From NCBI RefSeq assembly GCF_036370855.1, contig NC_088111.1:24835501-24899500 (forward strand): DNA of 64,000 bases. The letters run 5' to 3'. Numbering within the stretch: the stretch's first letter is position 1; each line of letters starts with the position of its first letter. The position numbers and the translations under genes are program-made. The stretch comes from Dromaius novaehollandiae (Eukaryota > Chordata > Aves > Casuariiformes > Dromaiidae). Under the pieces are notes generated by a model that was given only the letters and a program-made list of their open reading frames with translations, was not told the DNA's origin and searched no databases. This document shows positions 11,105-48,330 of the stretch, piece after piece.

Positions 11105-12300
11105 GTGGTCTGGGGTGGTGGGCTGGGGGCCCAATTCTGTGCGGAAGAGTGGTCCAGAGTGCACTAGAGGGGTGCTAAAGGGTCTAGATTGTCAGGAAAT
11201 GCCTCTGGGGAAGCAGGAAGTAATCTGGAGGGGTTAGGAGAAGACTAGAGGGTGCCTAAGGGGTCTGGGGGCCAGAAGAGAGGTGGGGGCCCAATTCTGT
11301 GAAAAAGAGGGGTCCAGAGTGCACTAGAGGGGTGCTTAGCGGTCTACATTATCAAGAATTGCCTCTGGGGAGCAAGAAGAAATCTGGAGGGGTTACGAGA
11401 AGAGCAGAGGGTGTCTAAGGGGTCTGGGGGGCCAGAAGAGTGCTGGGGGGGGGCAAATTCTGTGGATAAGAGGGGTCCAGAGTGCACTAGAGGGGTGCTT
11501 AGTGGTCTACATTACCAAGAACTGCCTCTGGGGAAGCAGGAAGAAATCTGGAGGGATTGTGAGGAGACTGGAGGTGTCTAAGTGGTCCGGGGTCCAGAAG
11601 AGAGCTGGGGGCCCAATTCTGTGCAGAAGAGTGGTCCAGAGTGCACTAGAGGGGTGCTTAGCAGTCTACATTATCAAGAAATGGCTCTGGGGAAGCAGGA
11701 AGAAATCTGGAGTCGTTAGGAGAAGACTAGAGGGTGTCTAAGGGGTCTGGGGGCCAGAAGAGACCTGGGGGGCCCAATACTGTGGAAAAGAGGGGTCCAG
11801 AGTGCACTAGATGGGTGCTAAGGTGTCTAGATGGTCAAGAGATGGCTCTGGGGAAGCAGAAAGAAATCTGGAGGGGTTGCGAGCAGACTAGAGGGTGTCT
11901 AAGGGGTCTGGGGGGCCAGAAGGCAGCTCTGGGGTACAGCAAGCACCCCAGGAGATTTGTTCTGAGCATGCCAGGAGTCCAAAGGGGACTAGATGGCCAG
12001 AAACCCGACTATGGCAAACCAGGGTGATATCTGTAAGGTTTCTGAGGAGACTCGCTGTTCCCTAAGGGTGCTGGGGGGCCAGAGGCCAGCTCTGGGGCAG
12101 TACAAGCACCCCAGGGTGGGTTCTGAGCAGAGCAGAGGGCTTCTAAGGGCCCTAGATGGCCAAAATACAAGACCTGGGTAACAAGGAAGACCTCAGGAGG
12201 TGCTCTGAGGGTACAGGAGGGGAATGATTTTGAGCCAACTAGAGGACACATGGAGGTATGTGAGGCACAACAAAGGAAGATAGAGGAGTCTTGAGGGGAC
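11105..12300. repeat. 160-bp tandem array at outer end of left arm
   Basis: The phrase 'gcactagagg' recurs at 11161, 11321, 11483, 11642 and 11803, giving a unit of about 160 bp. Each unit holds 'ggggtctgg', 'gcctctgggg' and 'aagaaatctggagg' cores. After about 11960 the copies become divergent and shorter. The mirrored array in the other arm is at about 46500-47250. Frames such as 11502-11741 and 11734-12027 are products of the repeat. Confidence 0.9.
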
Positions 12301-12960
12301 TAGAAGGAAAGGGGAGCAGAAGGAAAGGGGATCTGATGGGATAGAGGGCACATGGAATGGTCATAGGGATAGGGCAGAGAGGATTCTACAGTGCAACCAA
12401 TGGAAAAGAAGGGCTGTAGGGCACACTGAAAGGGTGTAATGAATGCATAGGGTTCTGGGGTACCCCCGAGGCAAACCAAGGCGTCCCGAGGGGAGCGTGT
12501 GGCATTCAGAGGGGTTCTGATGGGGCTAAAGGGCTGGGAGATGGACCCTAAGGGACTCAGAGGGCAAACAGGCATCCTGAGAGGACTAGAGGGCAAAAGC
12601 AAAGGCTCTGAGATGCACCAATGGCAAACGGAGAGGTTTTGAGGAGACTAGAGGGAAAAGAGGGGGGACTTAATAGGACAAGAGGACAAACATAGGAGTC
12701 TTGATGCTACCAGAGGGCCTACAGACACCAAACGGCAGAGTAATCTTGCAGGAACTAGAAAGAAGCAAAGATTTTTGAAGGGACAAGAGAACAAATGGAG
12801 TGCCTTGGAGCACACCTAGAGGCAAATGGATTGGTCCTGAGGGAGCTAGGGAGCAAATGGGGGAGTCCTGGGGTGACACAGGGAAAAACTGAAGGTTCTG
12901 GGGCATTAGCTCACCTGCCATAATCTTCCTGCTTGGAGCCTGCCTCTTCCCTCTGAGAAG
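12300..12960. repeat. Degenerate short-unit tandem repeat, left arm
   Basis: Diverged repeats of a 'gactagagggcaaa' type unit of very roughly 55-85 bp, each with a variant of 'ctagagggcaaatggagg'. They look like older relatives of the neighbouring array. The mirror copy is 45620-46240, and related units reappear inside the arm at about 16240-16510 (mirror about 42870-43120) and beyond the right arm to about 48330. No gene is seen in it. Confidence 0.75.
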
Positions 12961-13814
12961 CTGGCCTTTGCTTTCATTGCACAGGCAGCTGTGAGCTGTT
13001 GTGTAGTCTTGGCAGACAAGTTGAGGATTGCTGCCCAGGCAGTCGTGACCTGCAACACTGCATGCTCAGAACAGTTCTCAGGAAGTCATGCATACTCATA
13101 ACCTGAAGAGCAAAAAACAAGTCTCTCTTAAGGTCAGTTTTTATTTCATGGTAGGAACAATTTTTTCCTTCTTCTGCACTGTACTGCCCCTAACAGCACA
13201 CCTTCCTCATCACCATTTTCCCCTGCTCCTTTCACTCCTCTCAGTTGCCCCTGCATCTTAGACCTCTAAAGCAGCTGTTTCCCATCCACAGATACTTTCC
13301 TGTCCTGTCACCAATTCACCCCCATTTGTCCTATAGCAAGTAGCTGGGAGACCTTGGCCTAGTTCTTTGCTGCACACACCTTTTGATCTGGCAAGCAGCT
13401 CAGACAGAGCAGAGGGCAGCAAGAAAAGTGGATCTGAACATAGTAGGCTTGGGCACCAAGCAAGATGGAAGCAGCAGCAAGGCATCAAAGAGATGACATC
13501 TTTGTAAAGAAAAGAGATATAGATCCAGGCAACTGGGGATTCTCTGTACCTGTGGCCAGGTCTCCTGCAGGCTCTTTCCACACAGTTAAAGGCAGCTGAA
13601 TGCAGTGCCTTTGGGAGGCATGGTGTCCCCGGTACTGCTGTAGGGTGGCTGTTCCAGGGTCTCTCAGGCTGTTTTAGGATCCTTGGACAGAAACAGTGCT
13701 GTTCACATTTCCCTGAGGACTTTCCCTTGTGCTGCACAGCAGGACAGCTCTGCACTGTGCCCTCCCAGCACTGCTGCTCCTCATGGCTGCTGCCTAATTG
13801 GCCCCAATCCTGAG

Positions 13815-14320
13815 CAAAGCTACAACTCCCAGGAGCCCGCACTGCCCCTCCTACTCTCCCTGCCCTCCCCGTTTCCCAGAGGGACAGCCCCAGCCCCTGG
13901 GGACAAGCCTGCCTGGTCACACCAGAGATGGAAAATGCTTCCTGCCCTGTACCAGGGAAAAACAGGGAAATTCCACTGTCCCCAATGACCTACAGGGACT
14001 CTTGTGTGAGCAGCACATGTCCAATAAGGAAAAGACCCAGCGGGCCACTGCTGCAGGGCTGAGAAGGCACCGGCACCTGGAGGTACAACTCCTGGCCTGC
14101 CACAGAGCACGACGCGGCCGGCTGGTGGGAGCCCCGCTGGCAGAGAACTGCCCCTCCGGCCACCTCGAGAGGCACAGCATAGTCTCCCAGAAGCCCAATA
14201 CGGGAAGACTACATCTCCTGGCATGCCGTGCAAACAAAAATGGCCTCCCGGAAGCCCAGTGCCGGAAGACTACCGCTCCCGGCATTCCAGCGGCACCGCC
14301 CCCCCCGCCCGCAGCGCTAG
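13815..14320 (+). promoter_or_regulatory. Promoter-like block with ZNF143/ETS-type sites (left arm)
   Basis: CpG-containing DNA with several sequences close to the SBS element bound by ZNF143/THAP11, consensus ACTACAAnTCCCAGnnnGC: ctacaactcccaggagcccg at 13820, actacatctcctggcatgcc at 14209 and actaccgctcccggcattcc at 14269. GCCGGAAG (ETS-like) stands directly before the last. The block around 14190-14290 is a doubled unit of about 60 bp. It ends at a textbook splice donor, gctag|gtgagt, at 14320/14321, so a first exon transcribed rightward is plausible. No TATA box is seen. The same block is mirrored in the right arm and degenerate in the spacer. Confidence 0.55.
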
Positions 14321-14949
14321 GTGAGTTTTGACCCTCTGGAGATTCCGTTCCTTTCCGTCCCGCCCCCGTTCCCCTTCCCGCCCTGTCCCCCCGGAAACCA
14401 CCGCAGAGCCCCGAGCGCGACCCCGCGATCCCCAGCACCGGCCTGGGGCTCCCCCGACACCGCCGCGGCCAGCTCTGGGTCAACTCTGACGCTGCCCCTG
14501 CCCCCCCCCCCCCGACTCTCCCTGGGATCACTCCTCCCCCTCCCCGACACGGTCCCGAGCGGACATAGGAGACCCCCCCCCCCCCCCGCGCTCCTCCAAC
14601 CGCGCAATAGACCGCACCACAGCCCCAGCGGATCGCCTGCCTTCCCCCCCTCCCCCGTCCTGGCCCACCCCCCTTCTTCCCCCCCAGCACCACTGCAGAT
14701 CCACTGCACCTCCTTCCTCCCCACCCAAACCCCAACGCACCCCCTTACTTCCCCCCCCTCCCCATACCACCATAGCCTCGGCGCACCCCCTTCCTCCCTC
14801 CACCTCCATGGCCCCGGTGCACTGCTCTTTCCCAGCACGTCCTCAGCCCCCACCGCCGCAGCACACTGCCATCCCTGGCCCTGGTGCACCCTGGTTGCAC
14901 TGTGCTGCACTGCCCAGGACACTCCCATCCACCGGGACCTGCAGCCCAC

Positions 14950-15012
14950 CTCTTCCATGGGGCAGCCGCCGTGCCGGTCCCAGGCAGCAGCACTCAGCAG
15001 CAGCTCCATCGT
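14950..15012 (-). other. Diverged copy of a 63-bp exon-like unit
   Basis: Minus-strand relative of the unit at 15172-15234: 21 open codons with the same MELLL...WDRHG.CP.EE pattern. The donor side is GAG|GTGGGC, weaker than in the other copies, and the base pair before the unit is GG rather than AG, so the acceptor is lost. It lies about 220 bp from its nearest relative, showing an older local duplication inside the first large copy. Confidence 0.4.
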
Positions 15013-15171
15013 CCGGAACCAGCCCCAGCACAAGCTTCCCCCAAATCCAGCCCCAGCCCCGGCATGTGCCTGCCCTTGCCATCAGCCCCACCTGGGATGC
15101 TCCCATCCACCCGGACCTCCAGCACACGTGGGACCCACAGCTTGGAGCACGCCTCCCCTGGCCCCACTCAC

Positions 15172-15234
15172 CTTCTCCACGGGACAGCTGCCGTGCCGGT
15201 CCCAGCCAGCAGTGCTCAGCAGCAGCTCCATCAT
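15172..15234 (-). other. 63-bp exon-like unit, copy A
   Basis: On the minus strand, 'ctggttccag' precedes 21 open codons that begin with two methionines (MMELLLSTAGWDRHG, then SCPVEK) and end at AAG|GTGAGT, a full-consensus splice donor. The length is a multiple of three, so the unit could be a phase-0 exon. The same unit with intact splice sites occurs at 15796-15858 and, in the right arm, at 43510-43572. I do not recognise a protein family. Its other strand is part of the Pro-rich open frame. Confidence 0.4.
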
Positions 15235-15795
15235 CTGGAACCAGCCCCAGGACAAGCTTCCTCCAAATGCAGCCCCAGCCCTGGTGTGTGCCCACCCTTG
15301 CAATCAGCCCCACCTGGGGCTTGTCCCACCTGTCCCAGCCACAGGGCCCCACCTGGGGCCTGTCCTGTCACCCAGCTCCACCTGGCATTCAGCCCAGCCC
15401 CAGGGCCTGCAGCTGCAGCCATGCAGGAACTGGGGAGAGGGAATGGCCATCAGCCCCATCAGGGACAGCAGAGGCACCCCTTCTTCCCCCCCAGCACCAC
15501 TGCAGATCCACTGCACCTCCTTCCTCCCCACCCAAACCCCAACGCACCCCCTTACTTCCCCCCCCTCCCCATACCACCATAGCCTCGGCGCACCCCCTTC
15601 CTCCCTCCACCTCCATGGCCCCGGTGCACTGCTCTTTCCCAGCTCGTCCTCAGCCCCCACGGCCCCAGCATACCACCATCCCTGGCCCCGGTGCACCCCG
15701 GTTGCATTGCGCTGCCTGGGATGCTCCCATCCACCCAGACCTCCAGCACACGTGGGACCCACAGCTTGGAGCACGCCTCCCCTGGCCCCACTCAC

Positions 15796-15858
15796 CTTCT
15801 CCACGGGACAGCTGCCGTGCCGGTCCCAGCCAGCAGTGCTCAGCAGCAGCTCCATCAT
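15796..15858 (-). other. 63-bp exon-like unit, copy B
   Basis: Second copy made by the ~807-bp tandem duplication. The visible exon-like 63 bases, the ccag acceptor and the gtgagt donor are the same as in copy A and as in the right-arm mirror unit. Which copies, if any, are transcribed cannot be told from sequence. Confidence 0.4.
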
Positions 15859-16914
15859 CTGGAACCAGCCCCAGGACAAGCTTCCTCCAAATGCAGCCCC
15901 AGCCCTGGTGTGTGCCCACCCTTGCAATCAGCCCCACCTGGGGCTTGTCCCACCTGTCCCAGCCACAGGGCCCCACCTGGGGCCTGTCCTGTCACCCAGC
16001 TCCACCTGGCATTCATCCCAGCCCCAGGGTCCACAGCTGCAGCTCATCAGGAACTGGGGAGAGGGAATGGCCATCAGCCCCATCAGGGACAGGTGGGGCT
16101 ACCAGGGCAGCAGAGGCACCCCCACTCCTGAGAGCAGCTTGCTGAAAGCTGAAGGGAGAGTCCTGGAGTGTAGAGAGAGGAAAGGGGAGTATGCAGAGGA
16201 CAAGAGAACAAATGGAGAGCTCTGGGTGCAACAAAAGTAGAAAAAGGCAATGACAAACAGAGTGACTCTGGGGGCACCACCAAGAAGCACCCAGAAAACT
16301 CTGGGACAGGAGAGAAAGCTAAACAGAGAACTTTGCAGTGTGCTGCAAAACAACCACAGGGCCCAACAAAAGGCACACAGAGTCCTTGGGGGCAACCCAA
16401 AATGTGAATTGATGCCCTCAGGACCCCTCAGAGGGCAAATGCAGGGCTCTGAGGCAAAGCAAAATACAAATGAAGGGTGTTGGGGCACACCAGAGGGGTC
16501 ATAAGGCATGTCACAGGGCTCAGTGCAGCTGACAGGATGGTGCCTGCAGGCTCCCCCCATCCCCATGGAAACTCTATCTCCCTACTCCTGGCACGCAGGC
16601 CCTGGCCCCAGACCCACAAGGGACACTGGGGAGTGCTGAAAGCAAATCCAGAAGCAGTCTGGGGACCTCACATAGCCCTGCAGGGGCCCTGGCTGCCCCC
16701 ACAATGATGGGAAACACCCCCAAGAGCCCAGGCAACGCAAGGGAAATTCCCCACAGCTCTGGGAACAGCACTGGGTTCCCTGGGAAGCGCAGGCACTCCA
16801 AAGTACAAGGGACTCGGGGACCAGCTCCCAGCCCCGGACACAATGTGTAACCTCCTCCCCTGGGCATCATCTTCAGGCAAACCGACAGCAGGAACCACAG
16901 AGATGAGTGCAAAG

Positions 16915-16933
16915 AATAAAGCAACTGTTTATT
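16915..16933. promoter_or_regulatory. Back-to-back polyadenylation-type signals, left arm
   Basis: AATAAA on the plus strand (16915-16920) is followed after 7 bases by TTTATT (16928-16933), which is AATAAA on the minus strand. The pair is kept in the right arm at 42442-42460. This could serve two converging transcripts, one from the promoter-like block near 14.1-14.3 kb and one from the inner part of the arm. AT-rich hexamers occur by chance, so the evidence is modest. Confidence 0.3.
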
Positions 16934-18784
16934 GCTTTACTGCGCAGAAACAACAGCTGGAAGCAAGTCTGCCATGGAGCTCAGTGTCAGCATGCTTCCC
17001 CTTACCTGTGATGCCTGAAGAGTCATCACCACACCAGCATCCATCCGTCCGTCGGGGAAGGGTCAGCTCCTGCCGCTGCCCTTGACATGGCAGGTGTCTG
17101 AGTAGCCGACAGCCTACTCCTCTGCTTTTTCCTTCAGGCATAGGATTCATCTCAGAGATGAGAGGAAAATGCCTGATCACACCTGTCTGCACTTCTGCCC
17201 TACCCCAGACTAGAGCCCTGCAAGACACTTCCACAGCTCTCAGCTCACCTGTCACATTGCCAGTCTCAGTGTGACGGGCCTGCGCCATATCAAATCCAGA
17301 ACTCAGGTCAGTGCGCAGAGCTGAATGCTGGGTACAGGGGAAGGTTACAAACCCCATACAAGGGTTTGCAGCCTGCTGCTTAGGCTTCAGGGCTTACAGT
17401 GTATTATCTAAGGATTTAGCCCCTCTCATTTCTCAGCAAGTCATAAGCCCTGAACGCTAAGTGACAAACCGCAAGCCTCGGAACCCCAGTGGTTGCCGAG
17501 GCTATAAAATTTAGGGATGAGGTTGGATTTTAAATTCTGCGCCCCGATCGCTACATGAGCAAACTGTAAAGCCTGACTGATAAAGACTGAGCCCCACAAA
17601 AGAAAGGAATAAACTGTAACTCCTGGGTGAGAGACCTCAGCAGCAAGCTAAACAATAAACCTTAAGTGAAAAATTCCAAACCCTCAGCTTTAAGCAACAA
17701 GCACCAAAGCACCCAAAGCTGTTTCCAGAGCCTGGAAACAGTCAGGAGAAGCCAAGGAGTTTTGCCCGCAGCTTAGGAAGTTTCCCCTTCCTTTAGAAGT
17801 ACAGCAGAACGGGAAGACACGCACTAGAATCATGTTACAGTTGCTGTTTAGAGGCTTGGTTTTAGCCACCATTCAAATGTGAGCACGTGCAAGCGTCACT
17901 CCATGGGACTGCACTAAGCTGCACTTGCACTGGACCTACCTGAAAGCCTGCAAGCACTAATTCATCTCCAGGTCAGACAATTAGTATGTTTGGTCCTCTC
18001 AGCTCCGTGGGCAAACATCCACAGCCAGCGGCACCAGTGACCACACCTAGGGGGACAACCGCCTCGCACCTCCCAGCCCCGCTCACGTACGATGTGGCCC
18101 AGGACTTAGCTGTGTCCACGCTGCAAGTCAGAGCTCATCCTCCACAGCCGGCTGCGCATCTCCGCAGAGCTCCCAGCTGCGACGAGGCTCCTTCGACTGC
18201 CCAACTGGGCTTCGGCACCTGCAAAGAGGCCACAGCGGTTACTGAGAGGCCAGGCAAATGCACAGCCCTCCTACTAGAACTGCTTCCTAGTCCAAGGCCT
18301 GTGATTGTTCCCATAGTCGTGACCGACCCTCCGTGCTGCTTCTGTCACCCTCTCTGGCACCATTTCATCGCAAAGATGTCAGAGCGGCTCTCACGGACAG
18401 GCAGGCTCGCTCAGGCACCCGGCCACCTCCAGCCTTCGCTAGATGGTCCTCTGCAGGGAAACTCTGCCTCTGACAGACACTCTCAGAAAGCACTGTCCAG
18501 CCAAGGCAGGACAAAAACTGAGGCCTCCAAAACCTCCAAACTCCAGAGAGACGGAGCTGATGGGCTATGGTAGGTTGTGGTTTTGCTGTGTACTCTGGCG
18601 CTGTTGCTCGTACACACATAACCCCATTTCTCTGCTATAGCAAAATTACTTTTGTAGCTGGCTCCTAAAAGAAACCGTAACTTGTGACAGCAAAAATCCC
18701 ATCTGAGGGCGGTGGTAACCGGTAGCTCTTCACAGAAGCATATAGTCATTCCCCGAGGTTCTGAACGCCTAGGATTAACGCAAT

Positions 18785-19039
18785 TTATAAATACAAAAAT
18801 ACTGCCGCTACAGGGTGTAAAGCCAAGCTAAGATTTCTGCAACCGAAAAAGAAAAACCTCTTCGTGTCTGACAGAACGAGCCGTACGCACCAGCGCCTAT
18901 AGCTCAAGCGACCCCTCCCGGGCAACATTCTTCTGGCAGGCTGCGGATCCGAACTCCTCCCGTCTTGCCTAAGAGTCTCCATTGGGACACAACAACTTTG
19001 CCAGCCAGTGCCTGTTGATGGAGGCAGAGTAAAATCCAT
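18785..19039 (-). other. Short frame conserved between arms (left copy)
   Basis: An 84-residue minus-strand frame beginning MDFTLPPSTG. On the right arm the mirrored plus-strand frame (36981-37250) gives an 89-residue product that aligns along most of its length before a length difference in a T-run shifts the C-terminus. A good acceptor (T-rich tract then 'ttttgcag') lies four bases before the ATG in the right arm. Many differences are C/T or G/A changes at CpG and many alter the protein, so purifying selection is not evident. No family recognised. Confidence 0.25.
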
Positions 19040-20075
19040 CGCCCTGCAAAAGTACAGAGCAAAGAAAGAGAGAGAGGAAAAAAAAAATCAAAGCTCTGCA
19101 GAAAATCATAAGAATCCAAAGTTGTTTGTAAGCACAAAAGCGGACCTAATACGCAAACGAGCAAGGTAAACGAGAATACGCGAGCCACGAATACCGCTTC
19201 CCCCAGCCCCTGGTTTGGAAGCTACGGCGACAGTCGGGCTTGCCGTGACAGGGAAGTTAGACTAAGCAGGCGCTAGAGATTAATCTTTCAGAAATCTTCT
19301 GCATCCACATTTTTGGCACAACCGTGTTCTGCCCCTCCATCCATTCAGACGCACGCGAGAAGATCCACTGCTTGTAACACTTGCACAGTAACCACCCCTC
19401 TGCCCCCGCTTGTTAAGATTAGCACCCGCTGTGCCACTTGGATAGATGATACTCTGCTGTCTCTTCATTTCCCTGACTTTACTACTTTAGAAGGAACTGA
19501 ACAGATTGGATTGCCCCTGTGCGATCAAAGCTAAAAGTCTCAAGGACGGTTATCAGCCCAGATTGCTGCTAAACAGTCTTTCTCACAGCCGAAGAATTTT
19601 TGTTCCGGCCCCAAAGGGGACGTAAGGGTGAGGCTAGTGGCACTCACTTTCCTTTACCACCATTTTCTAGTGGTGCTGCTCCCATGGAGTCAGCAGATGT
19701 GGAAAGCATTACCGAAAAAGGCTTTCCTTGTCCTGGGAATTAGAGGGCAGGAGGTTTTACAGCCACTTCTCCCAGTTTAGTGAAAGCAGCATCACGTTCC
19801 TCGTCCCAGCTCCATTCATGACTCCCTCCCAGTACTTTCCACCACCGTCTGCTGATACCGGCAAAGCCACGCTAATGCTGCTGGAGGAATTTAATCTTCC
19901 TAAAATTGCTCCAAGTTGGAACTGATGAGAAGGAGCCTTAATTCCACAAGGCTTTAACCTTTCTTCTATCCACCGTCTTCCTGTTTCCCCAAATACCATT
20001 GCCAAGTAACTAACCCGGGGCTCGCACTCATCGAGCATTCCTGAAATTGATCTCTTAGTTTTACACTTCAGACAC

Positions 20076-20098
20076 CTCTCTCTCTCTCTCTCTCTCTC
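20076..20098. repeat. (CT)n microsatellite
   Basis: About 11-12 CT units close to the inner end of the left arm. The mirror position in the right arm (about 35917-35935) has an interrupted GA/GC run instead, so the repeat expanded or decayed after the arms separated. Confidence 0.95.
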
Positions 20099-20146
20099 GC
20101 TTCCTCTTCAGTAAATCTGGTCACTTGACTACCATTCCCCTAAGAT

Positions 20147-22235
20147 AATAATTTGCTGTCTCGCAGCTCTTAGAAGTATGATGCTTCACAGACATGTAAA
20201 GTCACACACAGAGATGAATGTACGCAGCACACGTCTTGTAACGCGTACAGACCTTCTGTTATATGTTGGTGATCTATTATTTGGATCACTATTAACGGCG
20301 ATCCTTCCTCGCCAGGAGGAACGGGCTTTCCCTTTTTCTGGCAGAGGGAGACAGCTTTCACTTGGCTCCATTTGATTTTAATACTTCAGCTTGCTTATAT
20401 TCATATATAGTCTCTTCAACTTCAGCCGTGGCAATTAATCTAAAAAAGTAAGCATTCTATCTTTCCCTTTCCATATATGCATGTACGGTAACAAAACAAA
20501 ATAGAAACAACCAAAGCAAAACTAAGGGCAGATACAGTTAACAATAGCCACAGGGTAGGAACGGGTTACTCAGTCCTCAGCGCTGCCTCTGGGAGGCCGA
20601 AATAACTACTAACAGTCATTAGCGATAGTTACCTTAGTTACCCGTGCCAGAACGCCTCCTCCTGTAGCAGTTCCTGGCGATATCGAGGGGCCGCTGCATT
20701 TTGGCTTGTTTCATCCCGTCCCTTAGGTATTAACCACAAGAAAACGCTTGTCCATCCCTTCTCTTCATCAGCATTTGCTGTCCTTGGTGCCATCTCTGTA
20801 AGAAAGCAATAAACTCACGTTTTACTTCCAGTGAAACACACTGAATTATGCACGTTTTTTTCTCTTTACCGTGCTCCTTTTTTTTTCCCCCCTCTTTTTT
20901 TTCTTTTCTTCTTCTTTTCCTTAAGGGAAAGGTCTTAATACAGCACTTTGCATCATACGTTACAGGGTAAACAGTCTGGAAACGTTACACACAGCAATTA
21001 GGGCTAGGTTATTAGGCAGGCGGGCATGTTGCCTAATACCCACCTAACGCCATCTTCCGTGAAACCTTATTTTTATTCTGCTTCAGTATTACTGTTATTG
21101 TTCTCAGACCCTTGTAGACGCGCACTTAACCGACAACTCTCTCAGTCTTTAACTATGTGGAAGAAAGATAGCCCTCGATTTGCCTGTCTCCGTTTCAAAC
21201 CTATTACCTTTTCAATACAGCTCCTAGCTTCCTCTTATGCTCAGATGCTGGCCTCACAGGCGACAACCAAAATGAACCACCGGATCCCGAGGTCTTGCTG
21301 CTTCTCTTCGAGATGTCCCCCTTCGGTGGGCTACCCTGCCAAACAAACCAAAAAGACTGCCGAGGCCGCGAGGGTATCAGGTGTTTGGACCACTTCTCCG
21401 AGGCTTTCGGGGTGACTGACGTCACCGCTTCGCTTCACGTTACTCACAGCTACCTTCATCTATTACTTAGGGCTAAACCTGTTCCTATTTGCAGAGGGGC
21501 TTGTTGCTTGTTTAAACTCGCCATATAGTCCATAACCTGCTCTGCATGCTCCCTAGTCCCTTCTGCTTTCGCAACACTTGTGGTAATTCAAGGCAGTAAT
21601 TAAGAGTCCCCATTGTCCCATAGGCTGGAGCGAGACATTGCTGCTGCTCTGAGGAGGTGCCTAAAAGCCACGCTGTTTTCGCTAGCATCACTGGGGCTTC
21701 CCAGAGCCCATCGGTGTTCTCTTTGGCTTCTCCCGAGCCTTTTAGGTTTTTTAGGCTATTCCTTAGCCCGCCATTTTAGGGCAATGTTCTCCTTAAGCAC
21801 TGCGCACAGCACGATTATCCCAGATCAGCCACATCGTGCACATACAGAGGCTTCTGAGAGTCGGCTCAGAAGAAAAGAGAGAAAAATCTCTTTGTCATCC
21901 ACGCATCCACCCATCAACACTCTTCACCAGGAAGTGCTGTAAGTTCCTGTTTCTCTAAAGCGGGACTGAGTCGAGGCGGAGACGCAGATCGCACCCCATC
22001 TTTGTTAGAATGCCTCACTGCTGCGGGGACTGGGTCTGGCAGCAGTTTGAGGAATGTTTGGGGCCTTGGACAGAGTGCAGGGGAAGGTCTGGAGTCAGTG
22101 ACAACATTGCGGCAGGGCTCGGAGGCGTTTTGGGGCCTGTGGGGGCGTTGGGGCAGGATTCGTGGGTGGTTTAATGGCTTTGGGGGGGTGGTTGCAGGAA
22201 GGGTGGGACTGCGGGGCCCTCAGGGTGGGGGTGCC
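20147..22235. other. Spacer, first part: no gene seen
   Basis: Single-copy-looking DNA just inside the left arm. It contains a pyrimidine tract at about 20876-20932 and scattered short frames (for example 21026-21415 and 21613-21942) with no recognisable domain. No mirrored counterpart exists at the right-hand side of the spacer. Confidence 0.6.
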
Positions 22236-22239
22236 ATCC

Positions 22240-34020: not shown

Positions 34021-34039
34021 GGACACAGAGATACTGGCA

Positions 34040-34275: not shown

Positions 34276-34289
34276 CTGGGGGCAAGGGC

Positions 34290-37719: not shown

Positions 37720-37765
37720 AATAAAAACTGCTACAGCGCTTCAGGGAGGAGCTGCGTTTGCCCAG
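37720..37765 (+). other. Exon-like segment 1 of the right-arm-only block
   Basis: 46 bp after an acceptor 'gggaccgcag' and before GTTAGG, a weak donor. Read so that it ends at a codon boundary it encodes 15 residues (IKTATALQGGAAFAQ), in phase with the next segment. Alone it would not be convincing. Confidence 0.25.
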
Positions 37766-37874
37766 GTTAGGGAGCCATCATTAAAGCTTGGGGGGCGGGG
37801 TGGGGGGTGGGGGAGAGACGAGAGCTCTAAAACGAGAGTCTCCCCGTGACCTTGGTGGTTTGATTCATTTGCAG

Positions 37875-37958
37875 GATACTGTTCTGAGGGCCGGCAGCTC
37901 GAAGAGGAGCAGCTCAGCCCATTTTGTTGGTTTCGGTGATGCTGTTTTGAGGAAGCAT
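37875..37958 (+). other. Exon-like segment 2 (84 bp, phase 0)
   Basis: The acceptor is T-rich 'tgattcatttgcag' and the donor is AT|GTAAGT, full consensus after the junction. The 28 codons are open and include an SSSAHFVGFGDAVLRKH part. The length is a multiple of three and the frame agrees with segments 1 and 3. No known family was recognised. Confidence 0.35.
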
Positions 37959-38181
37959 GTAAGTACAGAAGGGGTCTGGAAGGGTTTTTCAAACAAGATG
38001 GGAAAGAGCAAGGAAGAATTGAGGGTGCGGAAAAACTAGGTGCCACGCGTACTGAAGTTGTTAAGGGCATTTGAGGTTAAGCGTCTGAAAGGGGCTAACG
38101 TGCATGGAATAGTAAAATACCGTGACCGAACGCAGGGTTCCTCCCTGGCCTGGGCCTGTGCGCGCGCCCTTGCTCTTGCAG

Positions 38182-38276
38182 ACGCAGACGCCCTGGAGCC
38201 ACAAGGAAACGGGCAAGCAGGCCCACGAGCGGGCTTTGGGCACAGTGGCGTGCAGCGAGCTCTGTGTGCTCGGCAG
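38182..38276 (+). other. Exon-like segment 3 (95 bp)
   Basis: A pyrimidine-rich acceptor (cgcccttgctcttgcag) and the donor GGCAG|GTGAGT, both near consensus. Following on in phase from segment 2 it gives 31 open codons and two leftover bases. A further acceptor at the end of the pyrimidine tract (ccgtgtccag, ending about 39161) would add a short frame ending in a stop. The function is unknown. Confidence 0.35.
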
Positions 38277-38324
38277 GTGAGTGGGGTTGGAGCGTGGCGA
38301 GGGCTGTTGTGGGCTGTCTGGATC

Positions 38325-39165
38325 CATCCGGTTCCGCTCCCTGTCCCTCTGTCCAGCGCTCCATCTTTTCCTTTCTTTCCCCGTGGCTCCGTCCGGTGCC
38401 CCATCCCTTTATTTAGCCACTCCTTCCTCTGCCCGGCTCCCCATCCCGCTTTTACTCTTTCCATCCTTCTGTCGATATCTCCATCCCTCTAACTGGCTGT
38501 CTATCGCTCTATCCAGCTCTTCATCGTCCTCTTTTTCTCCCTATCCCACTACCTGCCCGCTCTCCTTTTGTCCTGCTCCTCGTCCTTCTGCCGCTCTTGT
38601 CTGTCTCTCCATACTTCTCTTTGCCTTCCCAGCCCTCTGTCCGCCCCTCCAGCCTTCTCTTTCTATTTCCATCCCTCTGTTCAGCTCCTAAACCCATCTA
38701 TTTGCCTCCCTCTCCCTCTTTTCCCCTGTTCTATCCCATCTCTCTATCTGAATTCCCTTCCCTCTTTTTCTCTCTCCACCTTTCTGGCCAGCTCTTCATC
38801 ATTCCCATTCTCTTCCCATCGCTCCGACCGGCTCCCTGTCGCTCTTTTCTCATCCCCATTCCTCTGCCTGGTTCTCCCCCCTTCTCTTTTGCTTCCTGTC
38901 CCTCTGCCCACCTCCCCTTCCCTCCTCGCCCCTCTCTATTCTTCTGCCCACCTCCCCTTCCCTCTTTTTCTTTCTTCTGCTCCCCGGTCCTCTGTGCAGC
39001 CCTCCCTCCATCTGTGTGGCCCTCTCTCCCTCTCTTTCTATTCCTTTGTCCAGTACCCTGACCCTGGGGCCAGGTCTCTATCCTTCTCTTTCTTTCTCCA
39101 TCCCTCTGCCAAGCTCTCTACCCCTCTTTTCTCCTGTTCTGCTCCCTGTCCCCGTGTCCAGCTGG
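38325..39165. repeat. Pyrimidine-rich minisatellite
   Basis: About 840 bp almost purely C/T on the plus strand, built from variants of a 'ccatccctctgtccagctcc' type word with a spacing near 30-40 bp. It lies only in the right arm. The frame 38568-39356 is a by-product. If the flanking exon-like segments are real, this would be an intron with an exceptionally long polypyrimidine tract. Confidence 0.85.
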
Positions 39166-41587
39166 AGGTCTGTCATTGCTGTGTGTTTTGGCTGGTGCGG
39201 CGGGTGTTGAGAGGCAGTTGGTGCTCAGCAGAGCTGGTGATCAGCAGCGCCCAGAGGGTGCCATCGATCGGCCATGTTTGGGTCACGTCAGACACCTCCG
39301 CAGTGACTCTGCCTGCGGAGGTGCGGGGCTGCGGGTGTGCAGTGGGGGAGCACTAGTGGGCTAGAGATGCCATGGGGTATGTAGTCAACAGCGAAGAGGC
39401 TCCTGAGAAAGGTGTCGCAGAGGCAGAGAGCAGCAGAGGCTCCGAGTCCTCGGGCGTTAGGACAGGCGCTCACGGTAGGGCGGTCTGGAGCTGCTGCTGT
39501 CGTCTGTCCTACTCGTCAGCGCGGTCTGCAGTTACGGCCTCTTGTCTGCCCGCGCGCAGCCAGGGCTGCTGCACGGTGCAGCTTGACTCGTGATCGTGAC
39601 GCTGGCATCGAGCCCACTTTTCTGTCAGGTCTGCCTTTATGCAAACTGGTGTCTTCCCTACGTCTACAGCTCAACCCGTGTCATTGATTTAGTGCTTCCT
39701 CAGGGGCCATGCTGTGCTGTCAACACCTCCGCCCCCCTCTCCACTGTCGCTTCCTGATGAAGGATGCTTTGAGTTTATCTTAGTAAATGCAGTCGTTTAC
39801 GTAGCTTCTGGCTCGTTTCTTTCCTTGGAACTCCTTGCTCTTTGTTGTTCTGGTCCCTCCAAACAATTTCTGCTTCTAGTATTATTAATGCTGGGCTGTA
39901 AACCTTCCAGAGCTTCCTCCTTTGAAGTCCAGGAGTTCAAGGGGTTCCAGTATTGTTTGTACTTTGAGAGTAAAGGTCTTTCACAACTGATGTCTTAAGT
40001 ACGCAACTGTCTTACCTGGGATTTTTGTTTTCGCAAGTTACAGTTTCTTTCAGGAGCCAGCTACAACAGTAACTTTGCTGTAGCAGAGAAATGGGGTTAC
40101 GTGTGTACGAGCAACAGCGCCAGAGTACACAGCAAAACCATAGTCTACGGTGCCGGTAGCACGAGTCGGTTTCCCATCAGCTCCATCTCTCCGGAGTTTG
40201 GAGTTTTTGGAGGCCTTAGTTTTATCCTGCCTTGGCTGGACAGTGCTTTCTGAGAGTGTCTGTCAGAGGCAGAGTTTCCCTGCAGAGGACCATCTAGCGA
40301 AGGCTGGAGGTGGCCGGGTGCCTGAGCGAGCCTGCCTGTCCGTGAGAGCCGCTCTGACATCTTTGCGATGAAATGGTGCCAGAGAGGGTGACAGAAGCAG
40401 CACGGGAGGGTTGGTCACAACTGTGGGAACAATCATGGGCCTTGGACTAGGGAAGCAGTTCTAGCAGGAGGGCCGTGCAGTTGCTCGGCCTCTCAGTAAC
40501 CGCTGTGGCCTCTTTGCAGGTGCCGAAGCCCAGTTGGGCAGTCGAAGGAGCCTCGTCGCAGCTGGGAGCTCTGCGGAGATGCGCAGCCGGCTGTGGAGGA
40601 TGAGCTCTGACTTGCAGCGTGGACACAGCTAAGTCTTGGGCTGCATCATACGTGAGCGGGGCTGGGAGGTGCAAGGTGGTTGTCCCCTAGGTGGTTACTG
40701 GTGTCTCTGGCTGTGGATGTTTGCCCACGGAGCTGAGAGGACCAAACATACTAATTGCCTGACCCGGAGATGAATTAGTGCTTGCAGGCTTTCAGGTAGG
40801 TCCAGTGCAAGTGCAGCTTAGTGCAGTCCCGTGGAATGACGCTTGCACGTGCTCACATTTGAATGGTGGCTAAAACCAAGCCTCTAAACAGCAACTGTAA
40901 CGTGATTCTGGTGCGTGTCTTCCTGTTCTGCTGTACTTCTAAAGGAAGGGAAAACTTCCTAAGCCGTGGGCAAAACTCCTTCACTTCTCTTGACTGTTTC
41001 CAGGCTCTGGAAAGAGCTTTGGGTGCTCTGATGCTTGTTGCTTAAAGCTGAGGGTTTGGAATTTTTCACTTAAGGTTTATTGTTTAGTTTGTTGTTGAGG
41101 GTCTCTCACTCTGGAGTTACAGTTTATTCCTTTCTTTTGTGGGGCTCAGTCTTTATCAGTCAGCGTTTACAGTTTGCTCATGTAGTGATCAGGGCGCAGG
41201 ATTAAAAATCCAACCTCATCCATAAATTTTAAAGCCTCAGCAACCACTGGGGTTCCAAGACTTGCAGTTTGTCACTTAGCGTTCAGGGCTTATGACTTGC
41301 TGAGAAATGAGAGGGGCTAAATCCTTAGATAATAAACTGTAAGCCCTGAAGCCTAAGCGCCAGGCTGCAAACCCCTGTATGGGGTTTGTAACGTTCCCCT
41401 GTACCCAGCGTTCAGCTCTGTGCACTGACCTGAGTTCTGGATTTGATATGGCGCAGGCCCATCACACTGAGACTGGCAATGTGACAGGTGAGCTGAGAGC
41501 TGTGGAAGTGTCTTGCAGGGCTCTAGTCTGGGGTAGGGCAGAAGTGCAGACAGGTGGGATCAGGCATTTTCCTCTCATCTCTGAGAT

Positions 41588-42221
41588 TGTTAAAGAATAG
41601 TGAACTGGAACTGTCTAGAAATAGCTGCTTAGCACAACTTATATAAAACTTCCTTAGCATGAGTAGCTAAATTTGCTGAAGCCTTAGGCCACACTTGGGA
41701 AAAGTAATAAACCTTTACCTAGTTTAGTTAAAAAATAGTGCCTCAGAGCTTGTTCAGGCTGGGAAAATAAGGAAGCCACACGCAGTCTGCGTTCCTGTGT
41801 CACCCACTCTGAAAGGGAAGACGTCAAAACAATTGAAAAATAAGACCTTGGGAGACAACCGCCAGACCCAACAAAAACAGAGGTACAACCTTCATCAGAG
41901 ACCGCAAAAAACAAGAATAAGGAGAAAAACAGCTTGCCTCAGAATGACGATGAGACCCAATGAGGAGCAGGAGACCCCAGACCAAAAAATTGCTATTGGT
42001 CTAACTACCACATGAGGGGCGGGAAATGTAAGTTGAAAAAACTATAATTGCCCAGGATTTGTTTACGTTAGGGTCCCTCTTTGGAGGCACCCAGCTCAAG
42101 CTGTAATTACGGCATGCGTGTGATTACAATTTAATTTGTTTTGATTTGGCTCTGAACTTTACTTGCGGGAACCTAGGGTCGAGCGCTGTTATGGTGGCCG
42201 ACAAGCCTAATTTCCATAACA
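41588..42221. mobile_element. Solo LTR of an endogenous retrovirus, right arm only
   Basis: A 634-bp segment starts tgttaaag and ends ccataaca, so the ends form the TG...CA inverted repeat of a retroviral LTR (TGTTA/TAACA). It is flanked by a perfect 5-bp duplication, gagat (41583-41587 and 42222-42226). The left arm has the unoccupied site near 17155 with a single gagat, and the coordinate offset between arms changes by exactly 639 bp (634+5) here. No internal viral genes remain, as expected after recombination between two LTRs. A 5-bp duplication fits several retroviral classes, so the class is open. Confidence 0.9.
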
Positions 42222-42441
42222 GAGATGAATCCTAGCCCTGAAGGAAAAAGCAGAGGAGTAGGCTGTCGGCTACTCAGACACCTGCCACGTCAAGGGCAGC
42301 GGCAGAAGCTGACCCTTCCCCGACGGACGGATGGACGCTGGTGTGGTGATGACTCTTCAGGCATCGCAGGTAAGGGGAAGCATGCTGACACTGAGCTCCA
42401 TGGCGGACTCGCTTCCAGCTGTTGTTTCTGCGCAGTAAAGC

Positions 42442-42460
42442 AATAAACAGTTGCTTTATT
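42442..42460. promoter_or_regulatory. Back-to-back polyadenylation-type signals, right arm
   Basis: AATAAA at 42442-42447 on plus and TTTATT at 42455-42460 (AATAAA on minus), mirroring 16915-16933. Conservation between arms at this point is high overall, so it is not independent proof of use. Confidence 0.3.
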
Positions 42461-43509
42461 CTTTGCACTCATCTCTGTGGTTCCTGCTGTCGGTTTGCCT
42501 GAAGATGATGCCCAGGGGAGGAGGTTACACATTGTGTCTGGGGCTGGGAGCTGGTCCCCGAGTACTTTGGAGTGCCTGCGCTTCCCAGGGAACCCAGTGC
42601 TGTTCCCAGAGCTGTGGGGAATTTCCCTTGCGTTGCCTGGGCTCTTGGGGGTGTTTCCCATCATTGTGGGGGCAGCCAGGGCCCCTGCAGGGCTATGTGA
42701 GGTCCCCAGACTGCTTCTGGATTTGCTTTCATCGCTCCCCAGTGTCCCTTGTGGGTCTGGGGCCAGGGCCTGCGTGCCAGGAGTAGGGAGATAGAGTTTC
42801 CATGGGGATGGAGGGAGCCTGCAGGCACCATCCTGTCAGCTGCACTGAGCCCTGTGACATGCCTTATGACCCCTCTGGTGTGCCCCAACACCCTTCATTT
42901 GTATTTTGCTTTGCCTCAGAGCCCTGCATTTGCCCTCTGATGCCCTCAGGACCCCTCAATTCACATTTTGGGTTGCCCCCAAGGCCTCTGCGTGCCTTTT
43001 GGTGGGCCCTGTGGTTGTTTTGCAGCATGCCACAAAGTTCTCTGTTTAGCTTTCTCTCCTGTCCCAGAGTTTTCTGGGTGCTTCTTGGTGGTGCCCCCAG
43101 AGTCACTCTGTTTGTCATTGCCTTTTTCTACTTTTGTTGCACCCAGAGCTCTCCATTTGTTCTCTTGTCCTCTGCATACTCCCCTTTCCTCTCTCTACAC
43201 TCCAGGACTCTCCCTTCAGCTTTCAGCAAGCTGCTCTCAGGAGTGAGGGTGCCTCTGCTGCCCTGGTAGCCCCACCTGTCCCTGATGGGGCTGATGGCCA
43301 TTCCCTCTCCCCAGTTCCTGATGAGCTGCAGCTGTGGACCCTGGGGCTGGGATGAATGCCAGGTGGAGCTGGGTGACAGGACAGGCCCCAGGTGGGGCCC
43401 TGTGGCTGGGACAGGTGGGACAAGCCCCAGGTGGGGCTGATTGCAAGGGTGGGCACACACCAGGGCTGGGGCTGCATTTGGAGGAAGCTTGTCCTGGGGC
43501 TGGTTCCAG

Positions 43510-43572
43510 ATGATGGAGCTGCTGCTGAGCACTGCTGGCTGGGACCGGCACGGCAGCTGTCCCGTGGAGAAG
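43510..43572 (+). other. 63-bp exon-like unit, right arm
   Basis: Mirror of the left-arm units at 15172 and 15796: the ccag acceptor, 21 open codons beginning ATGATGGAG, and the AAG|GTGAGT donor are all intact. This is the single copy in the right arm. The family is unknown, and a leader-like hydrophobic run (MELLL) is too short to call a signal peptide. Confidence 0.4.
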
Positions 43573-44220
43573 GTGAGTGGGGCCAGGGGAGGCGTGCTCC
43601 AAGCTGTGGGTCCCACGTGTGCTGGAGGTCCGGGTGGATGGGAGCATCCCAGGCAGCGCAATGCAACCGGGGTGCACCGGGGCCAGGGATGGTGGTGTAC
43701 TGGGGCCGTGGGGGCCGAGGACGTGGTGGGGAAGAGGGGTGCACTGGGACCATGGAGGCGGGGGGAGGTGGTGGTGGCATGGGTGGGGGGGGAAGTAAGG
43801 GGGTGCGTTGGGGTTCGGGTGGGGAGGAAGGAGGTGCGGTGGGTCTGCAGTGGTGCTGGGGGGGAAGAAGGAGGGTGCGCCAGGACGGGGGAGGGGGGAA
43901 GGCAGGCGGTCCACTGGGGCTGTGGTGTGGTTTATTGCGCGGTCGGAGGAGTGCAGGGGGGTGTCCTATGTCTGCTCGGGACGTGTTGGGGAGCGGAAGG
44001 AGGGATCACAGGGGAAGCCCCAAGGAGCGTCGTGGGGTGGCAGGGGCAACGTCAGAGTTGACCCAGAGCTGGCCGCGGCGGTGTCGGGGGAGCCCTGGGC
44101 CGGTGCTGGGGATCGCGGGGTCGCGCTCGGGGCTCTGCGGTGGTTTCCAGGGAGACAGGGCGGGAAGGGGAACGGGGGCGGGACGGAAAGGAACGGAATC
44201 TCCAGAGGGTCAAAACTCAC

Positions 44221-44726
44221 CTAGCGCTGCGGGCGGGGGGGGCAGTGCCGCTGGAATGCCGGGAGCGGTAGTCTTCCGGCACTGGGCTTCCGGGAGGCCA
44301 TTTTTGTTTGCACGGCATGCCAGGAGATGTAGTCTTCCCGTATTGGGCTTCTGGGAGACTATGCTGTGCCTCTCGAGGTGGCCGGAGGGGCAGTTCTCTG
44401 CCAGCGGGGCTCCCACCAGCCGGCCGCGTCGTGCTCTGTGGCAGGCCAGGAGTTGCACCTCCAGGTGCCGGTGCCTTCTCAGCCCTGCAGCAGTGGCCCG
44501 CTGGGTCTTTTCCTTATTGGACATGTGCTGCTCACACAAGAGTCCCTGTAGGTCATTGGGGACAGTGGAATTTCCCTGTTTTTCCCTGGTACAGGGCAGG
44601 AAGCATTTTCCATCTCTGGTGTGACCAGGCAGGCTTGTCCCCAGGGGCTGGGGCTGTCCCTCTGGGAAACGGGGAGGGCAGGGAGAGTAGGAGGGGCAGT
44701 GCGGGCTCCTGGGAGTTGTAGCTTTG
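44221..44726 (-). promoter_or_regulatory. Promoter-like block with ZNF143/ETS-type sites (right arm)
   Basis: Reverse complement of 13815-14320 with almost no differences. The SBS-like sites, the GGAAG (ETS-like) motif, the doubled ~60-bp unit and the gctag|gtgagt donor (44221/44220 on minus) are all kept. If active, it would transcribe toward the spacer on the minus strand, mirror-symmetric with the left copy. Confidence 0.55.
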
Positions 44727-45619
44727 CTCAGGATTGGGGCCAATTAGGCAGCAGCCATGAGGAGCAGCAGTGCTGGGAGGGCACAGTGCAGAGCTGTCCT
44801 GCTGTGCAGCACAAGGGAAAGTCCTCAGGGAAATGTGAACAGCACTGTTTCTGTCCAAGGATCCTAAAACAGCCTGAGAGACCCTGGAACAGCCACCCTA
44901 CAGCAGTACCGGGGACACCATGCCTCTTAAAGGCACTGCATTCAGCTGCCTTTAACTGTGTGGAAAGAGCCTGCAGGAGACCTGGCCACAGGTACAGAGA
45001 ATCCCCAGTTGCCTGGATCTATATCTCTTTTCTTTACAAAGATGTCATCTCTTTGATGCCTTGCTGCTGCTTCCATCTTGCTTGGTGCCCAAGTCTACTA
45101 CGTTCAGATCCACTTTTCTTGCTGCCCTCTGCTCTGTCTGAGCTGCTTGCCAGATCAAAAGGTGTGTGCAGCAAAGAACTAGGCCAAGGTCTCTGCTGCT
45201 GCTTGCTATAGGACAAATGGGGATGAATTGGTGACAGGACAGGAAAGTATCTGTGGATGAGAAACGGCTGCTTTAGAGGTCTAAGATGCAGGGGCAACTG
45301 AGAGGAGTGAAAGGAGCAGGGGAAAATGGTGATGAGGAAGGTGTGCTGTTAGGGGCAGTACAGTGCAGAAGAAGGAAAAAATTGTTCCTACCATGAAATA
45401 AAAACTGACCTTAAGAGAGACTTGTTTTTTGCTCTTCAGGTTATGAGTATGCATGACTTCCTGAGAACTGTTCTGAGCATGCAGTGTTGCAGGTCACGAC
45501 TGCCTGGGCAGCAATCCTCAACTTGTCTGCCAAGGCTACACAACAGCTCACAGCTGCCTGTGCAATGAAAGCAAAGGCCAGCTTCTCAGAGGGAAGAGGC
45601 AGGCTCCAAGCAGGAAGAT

Positions 45620-46500
45620 TATGGCAGGTGAGCTAATGCCCCAGAACCTTCAGTTTTCCCCTGTGTCCCCTCAGGACTCCCCCATTTGCTCCCTAGTTCC
45701 CTCAGGACCAATCCATTTGCTTTTAGGTGTGCTCCAAGGCACTCCATTTGTTCTCTTGTCCCTTCAAAAATCTTTGCTTCTTTCTAGTTCCTGTGAGATT
45801 ACTCTGCCGTTTGGTGTCTGTAGGCCCTCTGGTAGCATCAAGACTCCTATGTTTGTCCTCTTGTCCTATTAAGTCCCCCCTCTTTTCCCTCTAGTCTCCT
45901 CAAAACCTCTCCGTTTCCTATTGGTGCATCTCAGAGCCTTTGCTTTTCCCTCTAGTCCTCTCAGGATGCCTGTTTGCCCTCTGAGCCCGTTAAGGTCCAT
46001 CCCACTGCCCTTTAGCCCCATCAGAACCCCTCTGAGTGCCACACACTCCCCTCAGGATGACTTGGGGGTACCCCAGCATCTGATACATTCATTGCACCCT
46101 TTCAGTGTGCCCTACAGCCCTTCTTTTCCATTGGTTGCACTGTAGAATCCTCTCTCTGCCCTATCCCTACGACCATTCCATGTGCCCTCTATCCCATCAG
46201 ATCCCCTTTCCTTCCGCTCCTCTATCTTCCTTTGTTGTGCCTCACATACCTCCATGTGTCCTCTAGTCGGCTCAAAATAGATTCCCTTCTGCCCCTCAGA
46301 GCACCTCCCAAGGTCTTCCTTGTTACCCAGGTCTTGTATTTTGGCTGTCTAGGCCCCTTAGAAGCCCTCTGCTCTGCTCAGAACCCACCCTGGGGTGCTT
46401 GTACTGCCCCAGAGCTGTCCTCTGGCCCCTCAGCCCCCTTAGGGAACAGCTAGTCTCCTCAGAAACCTTCCAGATTGCTTCCTGGTTGGCCATAGTCAGG
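45620..46500. repeat. Degenerate short-unit tandem repeat, right arm
   Basis: Mirror of 12300-12960 and onward: recurring 'ccctctagt.c.ctcagga.c.c' and 'tttgccctct' words at irregular spacing. No gene seen. Confidence 0.75.
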
Positions 46501-47250
46501 TTTCTGGCCATCTAGTACCCTTCGGACTCCTGGCCTGCTCAGAACAACTCTTCTGGGGTGCTTGCTGTGCCTCAGAGCTCTCTTCTGGCCCCCCAGACCC
46601 CTTAGGCACCATCTAGTCTCCTTGCAACCCCTCCAGATTTCTTCCTGCTTCCCCAGAGCCATTTCTTGACCATGCAGACACCTTAGCACCCCTCTAGTGC
46701 ACTCTGGACCACTCTTTTCCACAGAATTGGGCCACCCAGCTCTCTTCTGCCCCCCCCCCCCCCCCCCAGTCCCTTAGACACCCTCTGGTCTTCTCGCAAT
46801 CCCTCCAGATTTCCTCCTGCTTCCCTAGAGGCATTTCTTGACCGTATAGACGCCTTAGCACCCCTCTAGTGTGCTCTGGACCCCTCTTTCCCACAGAATG
46901 GCCCCCCCCAGCTGTCTTCTGCCCGCCCCCCCCCCGACCCCTTAGACACCCTCTAGTCTCCTTGGAACCCCTCATTTCTTCCTTGTTCCCCAGAGTGTTA
47001 TTTTGCCCACACAAACCACTCAGAAGCCCTCTGGTGTGCTCTGGACTACTTTTTCAGCTTTCCTTGTTTCCCAGAGCTGTCTTCTATCCCCGTTAGGAAT
47101 CGTCTGGTTTCTTTGCAACTTCTCCAAATTTCTTTCTTCTTTCCCAGAGTCATTTGTTGGCCTCGTAGACCCCTTAGCAGTCCTCTAGTGCACTCTGGAC
47201 TACTCTATCAGCCTTCTTTGTGCCCCAGAGCTGTGTTTTGGACATCTAGA
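46500..47250. repeat. 160-bp tandem array, right arm
   Basis: Reverse-complement units of the left array: 'ctctagtgcactctgga' recurs near 46692, 46865 (as ctctagtgtgctctgga) and 47184, with 'cccagagccatttcttg' words between. A C-run of about 17 bases lies at 46751-46767. Copy number differs from the left arm, so exact pairing of units is not possible. Confidence 0.85.
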
Positions 47251-48330
47251 CCCCTTTAGGACCCTGGTAGAAGCCTCAGAATCCCTCTGGAGCCTTTCTT
47301 CGTACTGTGGTGCCCTGTTTTGGCCCTGTACCACATTTAGCAGCCCTCTATTCTGCTTTGGCCTAATCTTTTGACCTTTTATTTTCCCCGCTACAGAGCT
47401 CTCTTGGCCCTCTAGACCACTCATCACCCCTCTAGTCCCTTCAGCACCCTTCTAAAAGCCTTTGTCGTGCTCCAAAGCTGTCTTTTGGATCTCGAGTTCC
47501 CTTAGGACACCTCTAGTGTACTCAGAACCCCTCTGGAGGCCTTCGTTGTGCCCAGAGTCCTCTTTTGGCCATCTGCATCCCATAGGAGCCTTCCTGTCCC
47601 CTCAGAGCACCTCCTGAGGTCAGTCATGTTAGCCAGTTTTGTTTTTTTTGCCATTTAGTCCCCTTAGGAGCCCTCTGGTCTGCTCAGAACCTCTCCTGGG
47701 GTGGGGCGCTTGTTGTGCCCCAGAGCTGCCCTCTGGCTCCACAGCCCCCTTCAGAACCCTCTAGTCTCCTCAGAAGCCCTCCAGATTTCTTCCTTGTTCC
47801 CCAAAGTCATTCCTTGGCCATGCAGGCCCCTCAGCACCCCTCTAGTGCACTCTGGACCACTCTTTGGGCTTTCCTTGTTCCCTAGAGCTGTCTTTTGGCT
47901 CTCTAGCTCCTTTAGAACTTCTGCAGCGTTCTCGGAACTCTTCCTGAGCCCTCTCTTATGCCCTGGAGTGCTCTTTTCATCGTTCAGCTGCCTGAGTACC
48001 CCTGTTTTCCTCTGAACCTCTTCAGAGGCTTTGCTTGTTCTCTTCTGGCTTCTTTTAGTTGCTCTCTAGTCTCTGTAAGAGATGTCTAATCTGCTCTGGG
48101 TTCCTCTTTAGAGCTTTGTTGTGCTGCATAGACCTCTGTTGGTCCTGTAGAGCCCTGAGGAACCCCTTTATTTTACTCTGGACTACTCTGTCAGCCTTCC
48201 TTGTTGTGCCCCCAGAGCCCTGCATAGGTTCTCCAGCCCTCTTAGCATCCCTCTTCCCTCCTTGTGCCAGTCCTCCACTTAGAAATACAGAGCTAGTACT
48301 CCCCTGGGGAACTACCCATTCCACCTACTG
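47250..48330. repeat. Diverged continuation of the tandem array beyond the arm
   Basis: More 'tagagccctctttggccctctag' type words with heavy divergence, including another 'ctctagtgcactctggac' near 47840. This part has no clear mirror on the left, where the array stops at 11105. It ends by about 48330. Confidence 0.7.

Follow-up and report, generated by a model that had tools for sequence, protein, structure and literature searches.

A large, old and partly homogenised palindrome in the emu genome

What is kept in a large palindrome whose arms carry no recognised gene, and by what process are parts of those arms held alike while others drift far apart? We address this question at a locus of the emu, Dromaius novaehollandiae (RefSeq assembly GCF_036370855.1, contig NC_088111.1, positions 24,835,501 to 24,899,500 of the forward strand), in a stretch of 64,000 nucleotides that we refer to as the window and within which all positions are counted from its first letter. 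The palindrome is real, old, partly homogenised and of a known kind. On balance we favour the reading that an inverted segmental duplication arose here long ago, most likely close to one end of an autosomal microchromosome, and that repeated arm-to-arm gene conversion homogenised the core of its arms. Its interest lies in the gradient of identity along the arms combined with the absence of a recognised arm gene.

Self-BLAST of the window returned four collinear reverse-complement blocks, 86-96% alike and with bit scores (1,723-5,047) far beyond chance: 11306-15096 against 47206-43426 (88.8%), 15474-17153 against 43878-42222 (95.5%), 17149-18701 against 41587-40017 (93.3%) and 18702-20147 against 37323-35864 (86.2%). 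These ordered inverted blocks confirm the large imperfect palindrome that an earlier note on this DNA had described, with a left arm on the + strand (11105..20147), a right arm that is its reverse complement on the - strand (35864..47430), and between them an unstranded spacer (20148..35863) whose 15,716 bp agree with the 15.7 kb proposed there. The window shows no full arm besides these two. At the inner end, homology between the arms breaks off abruptly past 20147, where the spacer begins. The outer ends lie within a tandem array of ~159-bp units (11122-11922), and matches of array type link the right flank to the right arm at 69-86% identity, fading out only at ~48.2 kb (48,218); because these relatives of the array run on to that point on the right, the outer edge of the palindrome is blurred, and the arm lengths of about 9 and 11.5 kb in the earlier note are to be read with this qualification.

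Each arm carries changes that the other lacks. The right arm alone holds a solo LTR-like (long terminal repeat) insertion of 634 bp (41588-42221, strand not assigned) that begins TG, ends CA and is bounded on both sides by a 5-bp target-site duplication, GAGAT; the left arm has a single GAGAT at 17149, the empty site opposite it. A further 2,693 bp (37324-40016, likewise unstranded) are found in the right arm only, having been either gained by that arm or lost from its partner, and the left arm alone has a tandem duplication (14670-16092, + strand) that adds 825 bp of extra sequence. These three differences account for most of the gap in arm length. The whole alignment comprises 7,049 aligned bases, of which 419 differ between the arms (5.9%; identity 94.1%), and has 29 indels between 12,200 and 20,147. 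Because the arms carry independent private changes, neither can be the other assembled a second time in mirror image: the 5.9% difference, the 29 indels and the private LTR with its empty partner site rule out such an artefact for the arms themselves. What identifies the structure as an inverted segmental duplication is that its paralogous blocks lie inverted and in order and have since changed independently of each other.

Divergence is distributed very unevenly along the arms. Proceeding towards the spacer in left-arm coordinates, it is 5.4% at 12.2-12.9 kb, 1.0% at 12.9-14.4 kb, 2.0% at 15.6-16.3 kb, 3.6% at 16.3-17.1 kb, 5.5% at 17.1-18.7 kb, 10.3% at 18.7-19.5 kb and 18.3% at 19.5-20.1 kb, beside the spacer; the interval 14.4-15.6 kb, where C-runs and the tandem duplication make the alignment unreliable (12.5-13.5%), is omitted from this series and retained in the count of 419 and in the permutations described below. 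The most homogenised stretch (12901..14400, + strand; partner ~45640-44141) has 15 differences in 1,500 aligned bases, and across 12.7-14.4 kb and 15.6-16.4 kb the arms are about 97-100% alike. In 250-column windows the variance-to-mean ratio of differences is 12.25, against a permutation mean of 0.90 and maximum of 2.24 (5,000 permutations), and the longest run without a difference reaches 470, where no permutation exceeded 265. Identical runs are present outside the CpG island of the arm core as well (13008-13275 and 15738-16121). Spearman coefficients for the centre of the gradient range from 0.47 to 0.63 over the five centres tried, and GC content against divergence gives -0.29.

A third, partial copy of the arm core provides an internal comparison. 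It lies diverged in the spacer (24275..25454, + strand) as two pieces, 24275-24581 and ~25154-25454, that total 0.6 kb and match the arm core at 86% and 80% by BLAST; an LTR-like insert (24587-25156), with no clean target-site duplication seen, splits them. At 590 gap-free sites shared by all three copies the arms differ from each other at 3, whereas the spacer copy departs from the left arm at 73 and from the right arm at 75 (12-13%). Because the spacer copy differs at so many of these sites, the core is not forced by constraint to stay identical in every copy.

The tandem duplication of the left arm supplies a further line of evidence, as its second copy switches affinity at ~15,655, resembling copy 1 before that point and the right arm after it. 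From 15,477 onwards there are 38 informative sites, at 22 of which the right arm alone is odd and at 16 of which copy 1 alone is odd; the first 21 in order are right-arm sites, 16 of the remaining 17 are copy-1 sites, and none of 200,000 shuffles was as clean. This count omits gap columns, three sites at which copy 2 alone is odd, and badly aligned sites before 15,477, and eight of the copy-1 sites are clustered at 16016-16047 and may represent few events. After the switch (15091-15468 and 15715-16092), copy 2 differs from the right arm at 1 of 378 positions and copy 1 differs from these two at 9 and 8; in the preceding stretch 10 of 236 positions separate the two left copies, and 29 of 218 and 23 of 220 separate one and the other from the right arm. 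On the aligned letters, the mosaic is most simply read as copying between the arms. Excess heterogeneity, the third-copy comparison and the mosaic switch are all indirect signs of arm-to-arm gene conversion, with copying inside the left arm still partly in play for the last of them, and the near-identity around the promoter-like core probably stems from one arm repeatedly copying the other. Homogenisation of the arms, to which the earlier note alluded, is supported for part of their length.

A broken gene, which the earlier note had overlooked, ends at the inner joint with the right arm. On the - strand of the spacer, an exon of CFAP119/CCDC189 (35277..35393) encodes the second half of the CLAMP domain and is preceded by AG and followed by GT. 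Further 3' exons lie within 34050..35180, also on the - strand: 35152-35180 (VCLDLTLVY; AG before, GT after) and a last exon at ~34050-34275. The splice phase from 35152-35180 into the last exon does not fit as read, which means that an exon or boundary was missed there. The match to PF14769 (CLAMP) has E = 7.6e-07 and 29.9 bits against a cut-off of 22.7, CFAP119 of 9ijj matches the spacer exons with E = 8.2e-04, and a CFAP119/CCDC189 fragment of the kiwi Apteryx rowi is identical at 48 of 50 residues, while a nighthawk CC189 fragment is 48% identical; the closeness to kiwi points to a palaeognath host. The kiwi record includes sequence that aligns to a part of the window that reads as intron. 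The first 94 residues of kiwi CFAP119 are matched nowhere in the window (best E 0.30), and the gene therefore ends at the (AT)n tract (35766-35868, unstranded) that lies exactly at the spacer/right-arm joint, where arm homology ends. The spacer thus holds the CLAMP domain and orthologous exons of CFAP119/CCDC189, and no complete gene.

Turning to what the arms themselves contain, mirrored promoter-like blocks are present as had been claimed. The left-arm CpG island (14101..14800, + strand) has 52 CpG and motifs at 14209 and 14270, with two more upstream at 13820 and 14083; its mirror image in the right arm (43651..44450, - strand) has 55 CpG and motifs at 44253 and 44314, with one upstream at 44703. 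We take these motifs to be ZNF143/THAP11-like. A degenerate form of the pattern matches nine times, always in the arms or the spacer copy, against 0.13 expected, an expectation that overstates the case since the pattern was written after viewing the sequence. The canonical ZNF143 motif with up to three mismatches occurs twice against 0.03 expected, and a short core is no commoner than chance (9 against 7.18). PMC5006282 describes an M4 motif that is related to the ZNF143/THAP11 motif.

The claim that the arms hold no recognised gene stands as far as tested. In the right arm (35.5-45.2 kb) six-frame translation gave no Pfam domain; across the window, six-frame scans took in all but 1-1.6 kb, 45.2-48.2 kb and the left arm at 11.3-20.1 kb, the last being covered only through its mirror image, together with 28.7-31.6 kb, scanned as single open frames only, and 53.1-55.3 kb, scanned in two pieces. 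Among 33 reading frames of at least 70 codons open in both arms, none has a clear synonymous excess, the best being 18052-18510 (7 of 15 changed codons synonymous, p 0.13) and the next 12673-13065 (4 of 9, p 0.25), with p values uncorrected for the 33 overlapping frames. An open frame through the right-arm core has one database relative among the 7,990 candidates scored, P0003 (an ENA record), which matches both arms piecewise, with stops and frame changes; judged from these translations, the core unit occurs elsewhere but not as a conserved protein. As far as tested, then, no arm-encoded protein is being kept and no multi-copy arm gene was found, and transcripts or the arm ends could still hold one.

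How might such a structure have arisen? Under the favoured reading, a break in an intron of CFAP119/CCDC189, at or beside the (AT)n tract, would have been repaired by a template switch that copied the 11-20 kb segment in inverted orientation, leaving two arms around the 15.7-kb spacer and severing the 5' exons of the gene in the same event. The arms have since gained the private LTR, the tandem duplication and the 2.7-kb difference, and their inner end has diverged by up to 18%; that 12.7-14.4 kb and 15.6-16.4 kb stayed alike is best explained by repeated arm-to-arm conversion. We propose that conversion may have concentrated on the CpG island at the arm core because in birds, which lack PRDM9, recombination takes place at CpG islands. 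According to PMC12047795, zebra finch and flycatcher show more recombination at CpG islands, and birds are without functional PRDM9; the passages on this name no palaeognath.

A bolder form of this idea, which we regard as doubtful, is that the promoter keeps an autosomal palindrome in being: conversion would start at the CpG-island core, identity would decay with distance on the spacer side, and the unit preserved would be a recombination hotspot and not a gene. Large palindromes are mostly discussed as a means of gene rescue on non-recombining sex chromosomes; if the idea were true, promoter-directed recombination alone would be enough to maintain such palindromes in a lineage without PRDM9 and outside a sex chromosome, and the identity gradient would serve as a natural record of how conversion acts over distance. 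With the cut CFAP119 gene as a marker of the joint, the event can be dated.

Several observations weigh against these proposals. The outer side of the core is also more diverged (5.4% at 12.2-12.9 kb), and the second part of the CpG island itself (14440-14649) is 13.5% diverged, in part through C-runs and poor alignment. Zebra finch non-crossover tracts average ~32 bp according to PMC12047795, far below the 470-bp identical run. The mosaic could also have come about within the left arm, if copy 1 had overwritten part of copy 2. Finally, the CFAP119 exon has changed at 1 of 39 residues relative to kiwi and the adjoining intron reading at 10 of 58, a contrast with a probability of 0.006 if neither lineage was constrained and of 0.14 if only one was free; a conserved exon sits badly, if weakly so, with a gene cut very long ago. 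This conservation reflects either a recent cut (the right arm having arrived after the arms diverged), a misassembled joint, a half gene that still works, or chance.

The second of these possibilities leads to an alternative account of the whole, in which the assembly misjoined the CFAP119 end to the right arm by way of the (AT)n tract, and the arms are true paralogues that do not in fact flank this spacer as a facing pair. The position of the joint exactly on the tract speaks for it, as does a CFAP119 that stops there without its 5' exons while its remaining exon looks conserved; against this, the window contains no N, and the arm differences, indels and private LTR with its target-site duplication make it impossible that one locus was assembled twice. 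We consider a misjoin unlikely. Conversion could instead be dispensed with if the palindrome had been built by two or more duplications, one nested in another, the inner inverted repeat being old and the outer one younger. Divergence does vary more than tenfold along the arm, and the tandem duplication and third spacer copy show that this DNA duplicates readily. However, divergence rises stepwise, from 1.0 through 2.0, 3.6, 5.5 and 10.3 to 18.3%, with no single sharp edge, and within one copy the nearest relative reverses from one piece to the adjoining one, so we regard nested duplication as rather improbable. Purifying selection on the promoter core, keeping both arms alike with no conversion, would be in keeping with a CpG island that bears repeated ZNF143/THAP11-like motifs and has a translated relative in P0003. 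Yet the spacer copy of that core has departed from both arms, P0003 shares just 36% in its best alignment, which implies that the sequence is free to change, and there are identical runs beyond the island; selection alone appears improbable to us.

It would be very surprising if the structure were an ampliconic sex-chromosome palindrome preserving a reproductive gene, and the sex-linked or ampliconic location offered in the earlier note finds no support here. Its size is within the range of the 38 duck W palindromes (15-346 kb) given in PMC7787181, but the same paper reports that none were found on the emu W, the overall arm identity is far below that of classical sex-chromosome palindromes, only two full arms are seen, and neither a domain nor a clear sign of coding was found in the arms as far as tested. 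Just one of the seven segments in the count, 12.9-14.4 kb, attains 99.0%, so the arms fall short of the >99% identity of ampliconic sex-chromosome palindromes. The presence of CFAP119/CCDC189 in the spacer, by analogy with turkey, speaks for an autosome: in a table of turkey homozygosity regions (PMC8470100), CCDC189 comes second, after PRF1, in the gene list of the chromosome 19 region 34,288-1,233,014, where that chromosome begins.

Comparison with known palindromes places the locus among its kind. Human Y palindromes such as P6 (PMC3723533) share long inverted arms, a spacer and signs of arm-to-arm conversion; they are sex-linked, with arms >99.9% alike, whereas the emu arms are 94.1% alike and steeply graded, with no arm gene found and no sign of sex linkage. 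The duck W palindromes (PMC7787181) are likewise from a bird and without a robustly expressed gene inside, but consist of nested repeats on the W, in contrast to a CpG-island unit as arm core and a CFAP119 that points to an autosome. X palindromes conserved across primates (PMC8981503) have conversion-homogenised arms that, like those described here, are GC-rich relative to their flanks; they differ in being X-linked and in having an arm identity >99%.

Other features of the window are less directly connected with the palindrome. The part unique to the right arm has two weaker CpG islands (37951-38650 and 39251-39800). With 161 CpG, an island in the spacer (22351-23750) is the strongest in the window and has no recognised gene. 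Probable remains of an endogenous retrovirus pol (29018..29990, - strand) gave RNase H matches with E values of 1.9e-05 and 4.8e-04, both below the Pfam cut-off. A tentative gene model of five exons in the spacer (26.3-32.4 kb, + strand) was dropped, as none of 65 candidates matched with E up to 10. No Rfam family reached its gathering threshold and no tRNA was found, scans of two stretches of the window for viral contigs gave 0 matches, and so did a typical CR1 tail repeat.

In the scanned flanks no Pfam domain was found besides that of an olfactory receptor, a frameshifted pseudogene in the right flank (54655-55540, + strand). A 65-bp minisatellite of 24 copies with a 78% match occupies 2-1561, and 49841-50910 and 51631-52748 form a diverged direct duplication (75%) with short exon-like units and no Pfam domain. 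A telomere-like tract at 54030-54260, with 12 exact TTAGGG in 231 bp, suggests a subtelomere or an old fusion point, and the setting as read from these letters fits the end of an autosomal microchromosome without proving it.

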